A program made the translations under genes and the position numbers. Below are positions 17,078 to 23,726 of a stretch of DNA of 64,000 nt, one piece after another. The DNA is from Haloterrigena salifodinae (lineage in GTDB: Archaea; Halobacteriota; Halobacteria; Halobacteriales; Natrialbaceae). Below the pieces are notes generated by a model. That model did no database searches and was not told the origin of the DNA. It was given only the letters and a program-made list of their open reading frames with translations. The stretch spans positions 1,673,969 to 1,737,968 of the forward strand of contig NZ_RQWN01000001.1 in NCBI RefSeq assembly GCF_003977755.1, given 5' to 3'. The number at the start of each line of letters is the position of its first letter. Within the stretch, counting starts at the first letter, position 1.

Positions 17078-18514
17078 TCAATTGCCCCGTCGGTAGACGG
17101 GGAGGCGGAACCGAACGCCGGCGTCGCGGAGCTTCCATCTCGTCTCGAAGCCGATCCACACCAGCCCGGTCAGGATCGCGATGCCGACGGCCGCGAACTC
17201 GGACGAGCCCATCCAGACCGGTGACGCGAAGAGGAGTCCGTTGTGGATCCGGTGGGGCAAGAGATTCTCGATGAGGTCGCCGATCCAGCCGAGCGGGTCG
17301 AAGTCGAAGAGGCCGCTGCTCCCGCCTCCGCCGTCCCCGCCGTCGGCCGTGCGCGACTCGAGGCCGAGTTCGGCGGCGCTTTGGCCCCCTTCGCTCTCGG
17401 CGCCGGTCTCGAGGCGTTCGGCCTCGTAGGGAAGCGTCGATGGGACCTCCCAGACAACGTCGCCGGACTCGTTGACCTCCATCACCCGGTTGCCGTGACT
17501 GTCGGCGATGAGCGTGTTCCCGTTGGGGAGGCGGTCGGCGTCGCGGGGCCACTGGATCTGATCGTCCTCCCACTGCCAGGTGCGGTTCCACTCGCCGTCC
17601 TCGCGCTGGAACTCCTGGATGCGGCCGTTTTCGGAGTCGGCGACGACGATCGCCGGCCCGCCCTGCGATTCGGGGATGTAGTCGGGGTTGTGCTGTTCGT
17701 ACTGGACGTCGTGCTCGTTCTCGCCGCCCAGCGTCCAGTTCTCGACCAGCCCCTCCTCCTGGTCGAGGAAGACGACCTGATCCTGATTCCGGAGACTGGC
17801 CATGATCCGCCCCTCGTGTTGGCCCTCGTCGATGTACTCGACGTCGTTGATGTGGGCCCAGTCGTGGGGGTACGGACCGGCCTCCTCGACGGGGAAGTCG
17901 CTCTGGGCGTCCCAGAGCCACTCGACGACCTCCGTCTCGGTGTTGACGATGAAGACCTGGTCGGCGACGATGTCCGCGACGACCACGTGGGTGTCGTTGA
18001 TGCGGTCCGCGTCGTGCCACTCACCGGCGGTCTCCTGGTGATCGTATCGCTTGTAGATGACTTCGGGCTCGGGATTCTCGTCCTCGAGGTCGACGCGCTC
18101 GATGACGTTCAGCGCACACGGCGGGTCGCTGCAGGTCGGACCCTCGCTGTGGATCGTGTCCGTCGCCGTGTACTCGATGGTCATCGGATCGCCCTCGACG
18201 GGGTCGGCGTCGAAGTACTTCGTCCGCGTGTTGTTGTAGTACGCTACCTCGCCGTCGGGCTCGTAGACAGTGATCGTCCCCGCCCGTCCGGACTCGGTTA
18301 CGACCGTGTGGTTCTCGGTCGCCGGCGCCTCCGGAACCGTCTCCTCGGACGCGGTCGAAAGGTCGTCGCTCATCGCCGCGCTCGCCACGGCGGTAGCCGA
18401 GAGGAGAATAACGGCCAGAAACACGACGCGGAGGCGGTTCCGCGAGAGCGCCGACCAGGCTCGAGAACTTCCCGAGCGAACGGCTGCGAGCGGCGATTGC
18501 GAACGGTCAGCCAC
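17078..18514 (-). CDS. Arylsulfotransferase (ASST)-like membrane-anchored beta-propeller protein
   Basis: The 478-residue protein starts at GTG 18514. A hydrophobic segment at about residues 28-47 is an N-terminal anchor, the middle is soluble, and a second membrane helix lies near residues 440-460 with a basic C-terminal tail. The soluble part repeats HD and DR-type blades: EWHDADRINDTHVVVADI, PHDWAHINDVEYID, WPRDADRLPNGNTLIADS, SHGNRVMEV, the beta-propeller pattern of arylsulfotransferase-family proteins. ASSTs move sulfate between phenols without PAPS, using an active-site His. Whether this one is catalytic is unknown. Lying at the end of the glycan region, it may act on surface molecules. 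Confidence 0.78.
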   Translation of the reverse strand: MADRSQSPLAAVRSGSSRAWSALSRNRLRVVFLAVILLSATAVASAAMSDDLSTASEETVPEAPATENHTVVTESGRAGTITVYEPDGEVAYYNNTRTKYFDADPVEGDPMTIEYTATDTIHSEGPTCSDPPCALNVIERVDLEDENPEPEVIYKRYDHQETAGEWHDADRINDTHVVVADIVADQVFIVNTETEVVEWLWDAQSDFPVEEAGPYPHDWAHINDVEYIDEGQHEGRIMASLRNQDQVVFLDQEEGLVENWTLGGENEHDVQYEQHNPDYIPESQGGPAIVVADSENGRIQEFQREDGEWNRTWQWEDDQIQWPRDADRLPNGNTLIADSHGNRVMEVNESGDVVWEVPSTLPYEAERLETGAESEGGQSAAELGLESRTADGGDGGGGSSGLFDFDPLGWIGDLIENLLPHRIHNGLLFASPVWMGSSEFAAVGIAILTGLVWIGFETRWKLRDAGVRFRLPVYRRGN

Positions 18515-18757: not shown

Positions 18758-19117
18758 GTGAGCGAAACGGAATCTCTCCAGTCCGGGACGGAACGCGCCG
18801 ACGCCGCCCCGGTAAACGACGATCGCCCCGTCCTCGAGTCCCGGCGGCGCCGATTGCGCGCGTACCTTCGGCACAACGCCGAACGGATCTGTCGCGACGC
18901 GGTCGTGTTGGCCGGCTGGGCACTGGTGATGGTGCTCTGGATTCAGGACTTCGGGGTCCCGCGCTGGCTGTGTTACCTCGCCACGTTCGTGGGCGTCGTC
19001 GGCTACACGCAGGTGACCGCCCCGTGGGTGCGCCCGTACACGAGCCCCGACGACCTCGAGTCGAGGCCAGCGGAGGGTCGAGGGCGGCTACAGGAATCGA
19101 AGCAGCGGCACGAGTAG
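18758..19117 (+). CDS. Small two-helix membrane protein, unknown function
   Basis: A GTG at 18758 gives 119 residues. The first 40 residues are acidic and then Arg-rich (ESRRRRLRAYLRH); two hydrophobic helices follow (VVLAGWALVMVLWIQ and LCYLATFVGVVGYT), then a charged tail. I do not recognise the family. It overlaps the 3' end of the convergent gene at 19088 by 30 bases. Confidence 0.6.
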   Translation: MSETESLQSGTERADAAPVNDDRPVLESRRRRLRAYLRHNAERICRDAVVLAGWALVMVLWIQDFGVPRWLCYLATFVGVVGYTQVTAPWVRPYTSPDDLESRPAEGRGRLQESKQRHE

Positions 19118-20335
19118 CGTCACGACCCAGAGGAGCGCGCCGAGGCGCACGTAGTCGTGGTCCTCCGGATCGACTCGCACGGTGTGGGACGCCCCCACGG
19201 CGATGAACCCGAGCGCGACCGCGGTCGAGAACCGGTGGACGAGCACGTTAAGCGGAAGCCGGGTCACGCCGAGCAGCGTGTAATCGAGGAGGATCGCGGT
19301 CGCGAAGCCGACCGCGCCGGCCGCGAAGGCCGTCGGCCGGTCGAGCGACCGCGCGAAGTAGTACGTACAGACCGGCAAGCCGACGGCGAGCAGCGGATAG
19401 AACGCCGCCGCGATGAACCGGGGGTCGATCCCCTCGAGGCGCGCCTCGACGGCGATGGCGCCGAACCGGACGAAGAGGTAGAGTCCGAGCAGCGACCCCG
19501 CTAAACACAGCGCGCGCGGGACGCGAGCGGTGACCGGATTCGGGAACGAGGTCCGCGTCGAGACCCGACTCGCGAGCAGCAGTCCGGGAAGGAGGCCGAC
19601 AATCGCGACGGGGGACGGCGGGTCGCCGCTCTCGAGGTCGACGACCGTCACCCAGCCGTCGGAATCGAAGCCGCGGCCGTTGCCCAGGTGAACGCGCGAG
19701 ACGTTCGACACGTACTGCCGATCCATGAACTCGCGTTCGACGTAGCGCTGGGAGTCCTCGGCGCTGTCGACCGTGTGGCTGAGCCGGAACCAGTCCCAGT
19801 GTTCACTGTGGGCCTGGATCGCGGTCCACTCCTCGTCGGAGTCGGGCGACTCGTAGGCGCGGATGTGTTCGCGCGAGCCGAGATAGTCGCCGTCGTGGAG
19901 CTGGTAGCTCTCGTCGAGCCACACGCCCTCGGCCGTCTCGTTGGTCGTGGAGACGTAGACGTACCGCGTCGAGCCGTCGGCGCTTCGCCAGGCCGTTTCG
20001 GTCCCGATGACGTCCTCGGGGTCGGTCTCGCTCACGTCCTCCTCTTCGGGAGCGGTCTCGTTCCAGTCGCCGCGACTCCGCTCTTCTAGGTGCCGGCGCG
20101 TCTCCGCTGGATCGCCGTTGATCAACACGTTGATTGCGAGCGTCCGTTCCTCGACGGTCGTCGCGCTGCTCGTGTACGGCCACAGCGAGGTCTCGTCGCC
20201 GGTGCTCACCAGCCGCTGGTGTCGGTCGGCTTCGTGGCCGTCCGCCGACGTGGCGGCGGTCGCTCCGAGAGCCAGCGCGAAGCACGCGACGGCGACCGCT
20301 CCCAGAACGATCAGCGTCTGTCGTTCGATGGGCGG
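19088..20335 (-). CDS. Secreted/membrane protein of unknown function; N-terminus lacks a normal start codon
   Basis: The first conventional start is GTG 20209 (373 residues). The same frame stays open to 20335 and the upstream codons encode TLIVLGAVAVACFALALGAT followed by ATSADGHEAD, a good signal peptide, with no ATG, GTG or TTG in that part. ATG 20367 lies upstream in another frame (MDTRTIADGGDRPSNDRR) and ends near 20312. Either a one-base frameshift broke the start or a non-AUG codon is used. The extracytoplasmic part (about 210 residues, NxT/NxS sites such as NETA and NVS) is followed by five to six C-terminal membrane helices. No recognised family; the topology suggests a surface receptor or enzyme subunit. 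Confidence 0.65.
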   Translation of the reverse strand, partial: PPIERQTLIVLGAVAVACFALALGATAATSADGHEADRHQRLVSTGDETSLWPYTSSATTVEERTLAINVLINGDPAETRRHLEERSRGDWNETAPEEEDVSETDPEDVIGTETAWRSADGSTRYVYVSTTNETAEGVWLDESYQLHDGDYLGSREHIRAYESPDSDEEWTAIQAHSEHWDWFRLSHTVDSAEDSQRYVEREFMDRQYVSNVSRVHLGNGRGFDSDGWVTVVDLESGDPPSPVAIVGLLPGLLLASRVSTRTSFPNPVTARVPRALCLAGSLLGLYLFVRFGAIAVEARLEGIDPRFIAAAFYPLLAVGLPVCTYYFARSLDRPTAFAAGAVGFATAILLDYTLLGVTRLPLNVLVHRFSTAVALGFIAVGASHTVRVDPEDHDYVRLGALLWVVTLLVPLLRFL

Positions 20336-20519
20336 TCACCCCCGTCAGCGATCGTTCGAGTGTCCATCGGTAGAACGACGGGCCGGGCCCGTCAGGTGGC
20401 TACGTAGGACCCGTCTCGGTCCGCTTATAGGCTTTCTCGTCTCCGCTGTCGGGTGTTCTACCGATGACTGTCAGGGTTTCGAACGGATCGCGGTGACGTC
20501 CGCTATCGGGCGGACGAGG
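20336..20519. other. Spacer between the unknown membrane protein and the UspA gene
   Basis: Counting from the annotated GTG at 20209, the gene-free stretch would be 310 bases. The part from 20210 to 20335 is better read as missing signal-peptide code. The remainder holds ATG 20367 with its 18-codon out-of-frame run and no other recognisable gene. Confidence 0.45.
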
Positions 20520-21443
20520 TCAGTCCATCTCGTCGGCACGGCGCGTCGTGAGAACGGGAACCGGCGACGTGCGAATGACGCGCTCCGTGAAACTGCCAAG
20601 CAAGTGGCGGTCGATACCGGTCCGGCCGTGGGTGCCCATCACGACGAGGTCGATCGCCTCCGCCTCGGCGTAGGCGAGAACCTCTCGAGGCACCGAGCCG
20701 GTCTCGATGGCGGTCTCGACGTCGGCGGCGCCCGCCCGCGCGGCGGTCGCCGCGTCCTCCTCGAGTGCCTCCCGTATGTTCTCCTCGAGTTGGGCGGGGA
20801 GCGGAGCCGTTTCCGCGTCGGCGACCTCCGGCAGTTCGTCCATGACCGACAGCAGGTGCAACGTTCCGCCACAGCGGTTCGCGAACTGCGCGCCCAGTTC
20901 GACCGCCGCCCTCGCATGAACGCTCCCATCGGTCGGCACGAGGACGTTTCCGTAGGGGTAGGTCGCCCTCGCGTCGTCGGCCGCGCGAACCGTCAACACC
21001 GGTACCTCACTCCGGTTGACGACGTAGTCCGTGACGCTGCCGAGAATGTACTCTCCCAGGCCGCGTCGGCCGTGGGCCCCCATCACGACGAAATCGAACG
21101 CGACGCCGTCCGCGTCGTCCGACTCCGACTCTGACTCCGCGCCGGCGGTGACGAACTCGACGATCGTCTCGCGCGGTTCGCCCTGGACGACGTGCGTACT
21201 GACGGCCACGTCGCGCTCCGCGGCCAGTTCGGCGGCCGTCGACACGATCTCCTTGCCTTCCTCCTCCAGAGCGTCGACGACCTGCGTGCCGAGGCGCGTG
21301 AGACTCGGCTGGTTCGTGTCCGCGACGTTGAGGACGTGAACGACCGCATCCTGGTTGGCGGCGATATCCAGCGTGTGCTCGAGGGCCGCCCTCGCGGAGT
21401 CGCTTCCGTCGATCGGAACGAGAATGCGAGTATCCATATCCAT
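20520..21443 (-). CDS. Universal stress protein with two UspA domains
   Basis: A 307-residue tandem UspA protein. Domain 1 (residues 1-155) has RILVPIDGSDSARAAL and VVMGAHGRRGLGEYILGSV; domain 2 (160-300) has NVLVPTDGSVHARAAV and VVMGTHGRTGIDRHLLGSF. Both carry the G-x2-G-x9-G-S ATP-binding pattern, so both are expected to bind ATP. An acidic loop (ESESESDDADG) splits the first domain. A second start at codon 3 (ATG 21437) is possible. These cytoplasmic proteins help in stress survival, but their mechanism is unclear. Confidence 0.9.
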   Translation of the reverse strand: MDMDTRILVPIDGSDSARAALEHTLDIAANQDAVVHVLNVADTNQPSLTRLGTQVVDALEEEGKEIVSTAAELAAERDVAVSTHVVQGEPRETIVEFVTAGAESESESDDADGVAFDFVVMGAHGRRGLGEYILGSVTDYVVNRSEVPVLTVRAADDARATYPYGNVLVPTDGSVHARAAVELGAQFANRCGGTLHLLSVMDELPEVADAETAPLPAQLEENIREALEEDAATAARAGAADVETAIETGSVPREVLAYAEAEAIDLVVMGTHGRTGIDRHLLGSFTERVIRTSPVPVLTTRRADEMD

Positions 21444-21524: not shown

Positions 21525-21893
21525 TCAGGCGCCGGGGATGCCAGCGGCGTCGAAGGCGGTGATCCCGAGCGCGGCGAGGGCGTAGAGAACGACCAGCACC
21601 GTCACCCAGGCGACGAGGCCGATCATCGCCGCGGCGGTCCAATCGCCGGGGTACTGGAAGTTGATCACGCCGATGTACGCCAGCAGCGCCAGCAGCGGCC
21701 CGAGCAGGGGGATCCACCCGACGAAGAAACCGACAAGCCCCCAGACGATCGCCCCGATCAACGCGGTGACGATCGCGTGGTCGTAGTCGTCGGCCCCGAC
21801 AATGATCCGGGCGCCGATGTAGATTCCCAGTGCACCGATCAGCAGGCTCACCACGAACACGATGGCTGACCCGATTGGTGACGCAGCGACCAT
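21525..21893 (-). CDS. Small four-helix membrane protein, unknown function
   Basis: From ATG 21893 the protein has 122 residues and four hydrophobic helices with Gly-rich packing (SLLIGALGIYIGARIIVG, ALIGAIVWGLVGFFVGWIPLLGP). The reading frame continues open upstream to 23603, but that part is antisense to the M32 peptidase gene and should be ignored. It resembles small haloarchaeal membrane proteins of unknown function. An inverted repeat at 21961-21980 lies upstream. Confidence 0.7.
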   Translation of the reverse strand: MVAASPIGSAIVFVVSLLIGALGIYIGARIIVGADDYDHAIVTALIGAIVWGLVGFFVGWIPLLGPLLALLAYIGVINFQYPGDWTAAAMIGLVAWVTVLVVLYALAALGITAFDAAGIPGA

Positions 21894-22196
21894 TGTACAG
21901 GAACACACGTCAGATAGCCCGAACAATCCACTGCTTGCAAGTTCTATACAGCGCTCATCGGTAGCGTATATTGGCGCTACGGCGCCGCAACGAGGCGTTG
22001 ATACGGGAGCGATACTGTCGGCGATTGCGACAGCTTCCGGTCGGTGAGCTCGAGGCGGCCGGGCAGGCCGACCGTCGATTCGCAGTCGGCTCGAGGGCCG
22101 ACGAGCGCACGAAACCCGATCCGGACGCGACGACCGACGACTGTGAAACCGCCGGAACCACGATGTTGATACGGCCGCCGCGTGTATCGGTCGTTC
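21894..22196. other. 303-base divergent spacer
   Basis: It lies between the minus-strand membrane gene and the plus-strand M32 peptidase gene. It is AT-richer around 21930-21975 (TTCTATACAG, GCGTATATTGG) and contains the perfect inverted repeat GTAGCG-8-CGCTAC. No coding signature is visible. Confidence 0.5.
21961..21980. promoter_or_regulatory. Inverted repeat with a TATA-like loop
   Basis: GTAGCG and CGCTAC flank TATATTGG. An inverted repeat around a TATA element in a divergent spacer is a possible operator. A six-base arm can also arise by chance. Confidence 0.3.
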
Positions 22197-23726
22197 ATGG
22201 CGACCGATCAGGCTCAGAGCGAGGCGGCCGACGACAGCTACGCGGCGTTCGAAGAACGCGTTCGGCGGATCGCGAACGTCTCGAACGCGTCCGGCATCCT
22301 CCAGTGGGACCAGGAAGTCGTGATGCCCGACGAGGGGACGCCCGCCCGCGCACAGCAGCTCTCGGCGCTGTCCTCGATCGGCCACGAACTGCTGACGGCC
22401 GACGAGACCGGCGCGTTGCTCAAGGAACTGGAAGACAGCGATCTCGAAGAGGACCAGGCCGCGGTCGTCCGGGAAGTCCGGCGCAAGTATGACCGCGAGA
22501 CCAGCGTCCCACAGGAACTCGTCGAGGAGATTTCCGAGACGACGACCAACGCCCACCCCGCCTGGAAGCAGGCCAAGGAGAACGACGACTTCGAGGAGTT
22601 CGCGCCCGTCCTCGAGAAACTCGTCGAACTGAAGCGCGAATACGCCGAGCACATCGATCCCGACGCCGACCCCTACGAGGTGCTGTTCTCGGACTACGAG
22701 CCCTACATCGACCTCGAGACGGCCGAGCGGGTCCTCGAGCGTCTCCGCGAGGAACTCGTGCCGCTGATCGACGCGATCGAAGAGAGCGACGCCGATCTCA
22801 CTACGGACGCCTTCGCGGGCGAATTCGACGATGACGACCAGGAGGCGCTGGCGCGGGACGTCCTCGACTCGCTGGGGTACGACTGGGACCGCGGTCGGCT
22901 GGACACCGCGCCCCACCCGTTCTCCTCGGGGACGCAGTTCGACGCCCGCGTGACGACCCGTTTCGAGGAGGACGATCTGCTGGGCTCCATTACCTCGACG
23001 ATCCACGAGTTCGGCCACGCCAACTACACGCTCGGCCTGCCCGACGAGGGCTACGGCACGCCGCTGGGCGAGGCACGGGACCTCTCGGTCCACGAATCTC
23101 AGTCTCGCCTCTGGGAGAACCACGTCGGGCGCTCCCGTCCCTTCTGGGAGCAGTTCCTCCCGACCGCCCGAGAGCGGTTCCCGGAACTCGAGGACGTCTC
23201 TCCCGAGGCGGCCTACGAGGCCGCGAATCAGGTCTACGACGACAACCTCATTCGCGTCGAGGCGGACGAACTCACCTACCACCTCCACATCGTGATCCGC
23301 TTCGAGATCGAGCGCGGTCTGATCCGCGGGGACCTCGCGGTCGACGACGTCCCGGAGGTCTGGAACGACAAGTACGAGGAGTATCTGGGCGTCCGACCCG
23401 AGACCGACGCGGAGGGCTGCCTGCAGGACATCCACTGGTCTCACGGCTCCTTCGGCTACTTCCCGACGTACTCGCTGGGTTCCGTGCTCGCGGCACAGCT
23501 GTACGCCGCCGCCGTGGACGAACTCGGCGATCTCGACGACGATATCCGCGAGGGCGACTTCGAGGCCCTCAACGGCTGGCTCCGCGAGAACGTCCACCGA
23601 CACGGCAAGCGCTACATCACGCCCGAACTGATCGAGCGCGCGACCGGCCAGGAGCTGACGGCCGACCCCTTCCTCGAGTACGTCACGTCGAAGTACGGCG
23701 AACTGTACGACCTCGAGGACTACTGA
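22197..23726 (+). CDS. Carboxypeptidase M32 (Taq type)
   Basis: I take ATG 22197 (MATDQAQSE), giving 509 residues; a GTG five codons upstream is less likely. The catalytic zinc motif HEFGH is in TSTIHEFGHANYTLG (near residue 270). Other family motifs are WDQEVVMPDEG near residue 35, GTQFDARVTTRF just before HEXXH, ESQSRLWENHVGRS, and DIHWSHGSFGYFPTYSLGS near the C-terminus. Length matches the family (about 500). M32 enzymes remove C-terminal residues from peptides in the cytoplasm, usually as dimers. Confidence 0.93.
   Translation: MATDQAQSEAADDSYAAFEERVRRIANVSNASGILQWDQEVVMPDEGTPARAQQLSALSSIGHELLTADETGALLKELEDSDLEEDQAAVVREVRRKYDRETSVPQELVEEISETTTNAHPAWKQAKENDDFEEFAPVLEKLVELKREYAEHIDPDADPYEVLFSDYEPYIDLETAERVLERLREELVPLIDAIEESDADLTTDAFAGEFDDDDQEALARDVLDSLGYDWDRGRLDTAPHPFSSGTQFDARVTTRFEEDDLLGSITSTIHEFGHANYTLGLPDEGYGTPLGEARDLSVHESQSRLWENHVGRSRPFWEQFLPTARERFPELEDVSPEAAYEAANQVYDDNLIRVEADELTYHLHIVIRFEIERGLIRGDLAVDDVPEVWNDKYEEYLGVRPETDAEGCLQDIHWSHGSFGYFPTYSLGSVLAAQLYAAAVDELGDLDDDIREGDFEALNGWLRENVHRHGKRYITPELIERATGQELTADPFLEYVTSKYGELYDLEDY

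Follow-up and report, generated by a model that had tools for sequence, protein, structure and literature searches.

An AUC or AUU codon conserved across 16 haloarchaeal species is the probable start of a gene for a putative membrane protein

On the minus strand of the window (the whole stretch of 64,000 nucleotides of the Haloterrigena salifodinae genome that was analysed), translation of a gene with an encoded hydrophobic N-terminus very probably starts at the ATC codon 20329-20327 (AUU in one related species), giving a product of 413 aa. This codon is the likeliest start because of the spacing of the Shine-Dalgarno (SD) sequence in front of it, because a conserved peptide begins there, and because an ATG is aligned with it in distant homologues. 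Since the odd start has been kept across 16 species, it most likely reflects neither a sequencing error nor a frameshift. Judging from the sequences compared, an AUC/AUU start with a compensating SD appears to be conserved in this archaeal clade, whereas earlier archaeal proposals each concerned one genome.

The main frame is closed upstream by TGA 20338-20336, which sits inside the SD sequence GGGGGTGA, and stays open from 20335 to the stop at 19088. An earlier note on this DNA had described a hydrophobic signal in a frame open for 126 bases above GTG 20209 and free of ATG, GTG and TTG. This was confirmed on the minus strand of this genome, where the stretch translates as PPIERQTLIVLGAVAVACFALALGATAATSADGHEADRHQRL and the signal or anchor encoded between the in-frame TGA and GTG 20209 is IERQTLIVLGAVAVACFALALGATAATSADG. 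The ATG 20367 that the note had placed in another frame, with a stop near 20312, begins an ORF of 18 codons in the -1 frame, with its stop at TGA 20313-20311. As explanations the note had offered a missing or added base, a rare start codon (ATC or CTG) or a programmed frameshift, and it had proposed comparing the region in homologues. That comparison found the start-less arrangement in 16/16 orthologues, and the option of a rare ATC start is now strongly supported, the SD spacing and these orthologues placing it at 20329-20327 (Table 1).

Table 1. Positions in the window of the gene, its proposed start and the features of its leader.
Feature	Coordinates	Strand	Remarks
Re-annotated main ORF	19088..20329	-	Proposed start ATC 20329; 413 aa plus stop; by orthologue comparison
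Layout of the main ORF			N-terminal hydrophobic helix, middle domain, about six C-terminal helices
Proposed start codon ATC	20327..20329	-	ATC in 15/16, ATT in 1/16 orthologues; ATG aligned in six distant homologues
Shine-Dalgarno sequence GGGGGTGA	20336..20343	-	6 nt before ATC; pairs with the 16S 3' end
Upstream ORF, 18 codons, MDTRTIADGGDRPSNDRR and stop	20311..20367	-	-1 frame; 19-nt overlap with the main ORF
Signal/anchor-coding stretch, no conventional start in this genome	20210..20326	-	Helix predicted for residues 3-24
Inverted repeat GACGGGCCCGGCCCGTC	20377..20393	-	5' leader; possible hairpin
TATA-box-like CCTATAAGCGG	20421..20431	-	Possible promoter, by consensus only

Protein searches covered 61 genomes first and then 125 genomes of the family, the second search giving 24 genomes at E ≤ 1e-95. 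The 16 orthologues of the clade (E ≤ 5e-171, 67-100% identity, five genera) come from G000-G005, G028, G029, G067, G092, G107, G111, G114, G118, G119 and G136, where G000 is this genome, G001 Haloterrigena salina, G119 Natrinema zhouii and G028 Halopiger djelfimassiliensis (the later-search loci L031, L032 and L033 are records of G001, G119 and G028 and were counted once). All 16 are free of ATG, GTG and TTG between the in-frame stop and the end of codon 10, and the hydrophobic signal stretch was found in all of them; a GTG or TTG occurs at codons 11-18, within the hydrophobic part and at differing places, in 10 of the 15 other orthologues. The eight next-best genomes (G007, G034, G012, G075, G016, G076, G077 and G078) have an ATG or GTG within five codons, and a strong SD is absent before the conventional start in these eight relatives. 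The tree of 26 rows groups the 16 clade orthologues together (support 98/99) with one change of label. Among the 29 first-search loci examined at the start (8 in the clade and 21 outside; L028, whose match begins at residue 91, was left out), six of the 21 outside loci have an ATG at the exact aligned codon (L019, L023, L024, L025, L027 and L030), e.g., M-K-R-R-H-L-L in a distant homologue against I-E-R-Q-T-L-I here, and the remaining 15 have an ATG or GTG within five codons. Matches were extended without gaps to reach these positions; for L025 and L027 the alignment already starts at residue 1.

The sequence around the proposed start follows one pattern throughout the clade, [GC]G[GA]GGTGA, exactly 6 nt, and then ATC (15/16) or ATT (G028). 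The conserved peptide I-[ED]-R-[QRG]-T-L begins at the ATC in the clade orthologues, and codons -1 and 0 vary without pattern (PP, PA, AA, PT, ST, RL, LA, SR, SS). Pooled raw pN/pS (pairwise, not tree-corrected) is 0.54 for codons 2-22 of the main frame and 1.62 for the ten same-frame codons above the ATC, which include the SD and its stop; for codons 2-6 alone it is 0.70, a weak signal that counts against the ATC reading. The other rare start suggested by the earlier note, the CTG at codon 6, is unlikely: it falls within the conserved peptide, 21 nt past the SD, even though it is conserved in 16/16.

The duplex of the SD with the 16S 3' end reaches -13.8 to -17.9 kcal/mol in all clade orthologues, against -2.6 to -6.1 kcal/mol before one ATG or GTG in each of eight relatives (one start was tested per outgroup gene, although a second GTG lies a few codons above it in L013 and L014). 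From this contrast, the lack of a conventional start goes together with a strong SD. The 16S 3' end GGCTGGATCACCTCC was present in 8 of the 13 genomes searched, including 4 of the 5 congeners (G002-G005, 2-3 copies), and was not found in the drafts of G000 and G001, which may lack rRNA operons. SD pairing recruits the small subunit in archaea according to one study (PMC7531240). Two points count against the ATC reading: in six of the 16 leaders, those that were folded, most of the SD is predicted to be base-paired (mean unpaired probability 0.01-0.35), and a study of Haloferax volcanii reported that initiation at 5'-UTRs is not driven by the SD (PMC3986360).

If translation starts at the ATC, the near-cognate AUC would presumably be read as Met by the ordinary initiator tRNA, the unusually strong SD at good spacing would offset the poor codon, and the product would be a 413-aa membrane protein with a hydrophobic N-terminal signal or anchor. 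By analogy with infC and sigR (see below), the retained weak codon may be a way to cap, limit or regulate production of the protein. The fidelity role would here fall to aIF1, which is reported to discriminate against non-canonical starts in Sulfolobus solfataricus (PMC6237735).

Both the SD and the ATC are contained in the 18-codon upstream ORF. Its start place is occupied by ATG in 14/16, GTG in 1/16 and ATA in 1/16 (G067), and its stop follows after 18 codons in 15/16 and after 24 codons in G107. Two neighbouring codons are invariant in 16/16, the CTG that ends in the first two bases of the upstream stop and the ACG preceding it; for comparison, an invariant codon was found in 1 of the 12 invariant Thr columns, in 3 of the 20 invariant Leu columns and in 28 of the 147 over all residues counted. 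The peptide of the upstream ORF is hardly constrained (pN/pS 0.79 for codons 2-9, 0.85 for codons 2-18 and 10.0 for its five overlap codons, which hold few synonymous sites), so the presence and extent of this ORF may matter more than its product. Because the SD and the AUC lie inside it, ribosomes on the upstream ORF probably influence initiation at the AUC, perhaps by competition or coupling, and its translation would open the paired SD. A more far-reaching reading, possible but rather unlikely in our estimate, takes the AUC/AUU codon as a control device of the clade, gated by aIF1 and by ribosomes on the overlapping, SD-bearing 18-codon leader ORF; if true, it would parallel infC/sigR control in archaea and add the input of a leader ORF. 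As a separate observation, the fourth codon of the upstream ORF, CGA (20356-20358, minus strand), is invariant in 16/16 and could pair with TCG 20326-20328 across the start (ATCGA); a change on both sides of this pairing was found in none of the 16 leaders.

How ribosomes might reach the AUC can be pictured in two ways. In one, initiation occurs by termination-reinitiation: the upstream ORF ends at 20313-20311, ribosomes move back, and the SD guides the restart. This is compatible with the AUC start and does not exclude it; we consider it a minority option. The upstream ORF contains the SD, which precedes the downstream start; the predicted pairing of the SD and the invariant stop-making CTG fit this course; and in H. 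volcanii the SD is reported to contribute variably to reinitiation and not at 5'-UTRs (PMC6728339, PMC3986360). Within the window, 4 of the 41 coding-like ORFs (selected by a crude composition filter, with likely false ones included, e.g., 20007-21134 and 21525-23603) reach an SD duplex of -13.8 or stronger (3256, 33713, 36136 and 58118); the start of each coincides with or overlaps the stop of an upstream ORF. Against it, four other ORFs that lie no more than 7 nt from an upstream stop (25682, 34564, 56016 and 59853) have a weaker SD, -4.0 to -11.1, as found on re-using 15 of the 41 ORF rows for this comparison. The overlap here is 19 nt instead of a few nucleotides or an abutment, while reinitiation in H. 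volcanii reportedly depends extremely on distance, falling to near zero at +23 nt, and overlaps of more than 8 nt are said to be rare there (PMC10666635); moreover, G067 lacks the upstream ATG or GTG and the upstream ORF of G107 is extended. In the other picture, to which we give somewhat more credence though still with doubt, the upstream ORF would act as a decoy, lowering expression by competition with the AUC, which itself would be used by direct SD-driven initiation. The conserved upstream ATG and the recruitment of the small subunit by SD pairing argue for such a decoy, and the SD that is reportedly without function at H. volcanii 5'-UTRs argues against it.

Other explanations would do without the AUC start. 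Given the conserved ATG upstream, some unusual kind of recoding has a remote chance. One rival is a programmed -1 frameshift, in which translation would start at ATG 20367 and shift into the main frame between TGA 20338 and the upstream stop at 20311. The constancy of the upstream start and of the 18-codon length speaks for such a shift, and an internal SD-like sequence can stimulate -1 shifting (PMC8211752). Yet an X XXY YYZ slippery heptamer occurs in the overlap of none of the 16 orthologues, there is little amino-acid constraint on the upstream frame in the overlap, G067 has ATA at the upstream start place, and six distant homologues carry ATG at the position of the ATC; the frameshift raised by the earlier note is thus disfavoured and appears very improbable. 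Little chance is likewise given to GTG 20209 as a start, whether the principal or an additional one, from which a signal-less product would result. Codons 40-41 (20206-20212, minus strand) include ATG, GTG or TTG in 13/16, often as ATG-GTG or TTG-GTG, and the place may serve as a second start for a signal-less form; but no conventional codon is present there in G001 (97% identical), G118 and G028, no single column is conventional in all 16, the SD duplex there is only -2.0 to -7.4, and the hydrophobic stretch upstream of it is found throughout the clade at a pN/pS of 0.54. The earlier note had held that homologues starting at this GTG without a signal would refute its view: the conventional codon was largely there, but the signal was missing from none of the 16. 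A one-base change would join the frames, but a base missing from or added to the assembly, with the true start at ATG 20367 or GTG 20339, is excluded in practice. The genomes of 16 species share the frame relation although the sequence around it differs at many other places, a sequencing error is not expected to recur in this way, and the frame of GTG 20339, which lies inside the SD and +1 from the main frame, stops after 4 codons in G028.

The AUC start resembles several reported cases, each described here as far as the matched parts of the sources go. In Streptomyces sigR the start is GTC in 32 of 34 species and GTT in the other 2 (PMC5472188), compared with ATC in 15 and ATT in 1 of 16 here; its extended conserved SD is AGGAGGTG, here GGNGGTGA or CGAGGTGA. 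However, sigR is bacterial, IF3-repressed and backed by a mature N-terminus and mutants (PMC5472188), whereas the present case is archaeal, is read from sequence comparison and has an overlapping upstream ORF. The infC gene (IF3) uses ATT in E. coli and ATC in Streptomyces, the same two codons as here; it encodes a fidelity factor and autoregulates (PMC5472188), unlike the uncharacterised membrane protein encoded by the present gene. Likewise archaeal is L12ae of Staphylothermus marinus, for which an ATC start was inferred by alignment as no valid start was present (PMC2678158), although this concerned one crenarchaeote genome and not 16 species with SD and leader analysis. In the Kariarchaeaceae (Asgard), the tubulin gene atubA likely starts with ATT behind a plausible RBS, placed by homology and RBS distance (PMC13394414), but in one metagenome operon against 16 species here. 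Overlapping gene pairs of a haloarchaeon also have the SD inside the upstream ORF and a downstream start that overlaps its end, but the overlap described for them is 4 or 1 nt, whereas here it is 19 nt with an 18-codon leader and a start other than ATG or GTG. The two overlapping ORFs of S. solfataricus fucA1, read by -1 programmed frameshifting (PMC8211752), stand in the same -1 relation as here; the present gene differs from fucA1 in lacking a slippery heptamer, in the slight constraint on its upstream peptide and in the ATG aligned with its start in distant homologues.

In a study of start-codon evolution, one AUG to AUU switch was counted in 61,358 ancestral AUG starts (PMC5622118), and an AUC/AUU start held over five genera would therefore be rare. 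The efficiency of ATT is about 0.3% relative to ATG, as cited by PMC10666635, and H. volcanii has been found to make small proteins that begin with CTG (PMC12482152). Among the matches listed from a partial literature collection, none reported an archaeal AUC/AUU start conserved across species. Because automatic gene calling relies on ATG, GTG and TTG (PMC5472188), the protein is at risk of being annotated without its signal. Two questions could be put to this gene as a natural test case: how well an archaeal ribosome equipped with eukaryote-type factors copes with near-cognate starts, and whether haloarchaea other than Haloferax make use of the SD in a 5' leader.

Further upstream in the leader, the repeat GACGGG-n5-CCCGTC folds as a hairpin of -8.4 kcal/mol or better in 13/16 and is weak in G028, G067 and G029; the inverted repeat at 20377-20393 could be an RNA hairpin or an operator, although as the operator of a regulon it was rejected, the pattern occurring at only 2 places in G000. 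TATA[AT] is present at the matching place in 15/16 leaders; judged by this box, transcripts would begin near 20400. RNAalifold found 12 weak pairs in the 16 leaders, none of them with both partners changed, and no supported consensus structure. We also searched G000 for further AUC starts, using two SD forms at one spacing and judging coding by eye: GAGGTGA-N6-ATH occurs at 21 sites and GGGGTGA-N6-ATH at 8, including this gene, and no second gene was convincing. The ORF following L065 has an ATG three codons on, and the 140-codon frames without a conventional start at L051 and L060 were judged non-coding from their composition.

The encoded protein is likely a membrane protein with an extracytoplasmic domain, a topology that is inferred. 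Pfam gave no match at E 0.001, nor at E 1 for the main protein, and NCBIfam (E 0.015, below the cut-off) and PDB sequences (E 0.044) gave weak matches only, none of them usable. A low-confidence AlphaFold model from 9 sequences (mean pLDDT 56.9) has a helix at residues 3-24, a mixed middle domain and six C-terminal helices. Eight plasmid records match the protein, all annotated as 'hypothetical protein'. Around the gene, a small hydrophobic ORF at 18758-19117 (plus strand) is convergent and overlaps its 3' end by 30 bp; Pfam gave no match for it, and NCBIfam none that was usable. The ORF at 17078-18514 (minus strand), which lies downstream of the gene on its own strand, matches arylsulfotransferase (ASST, PF05935) and has its own N-terminal hydrophobic segment.
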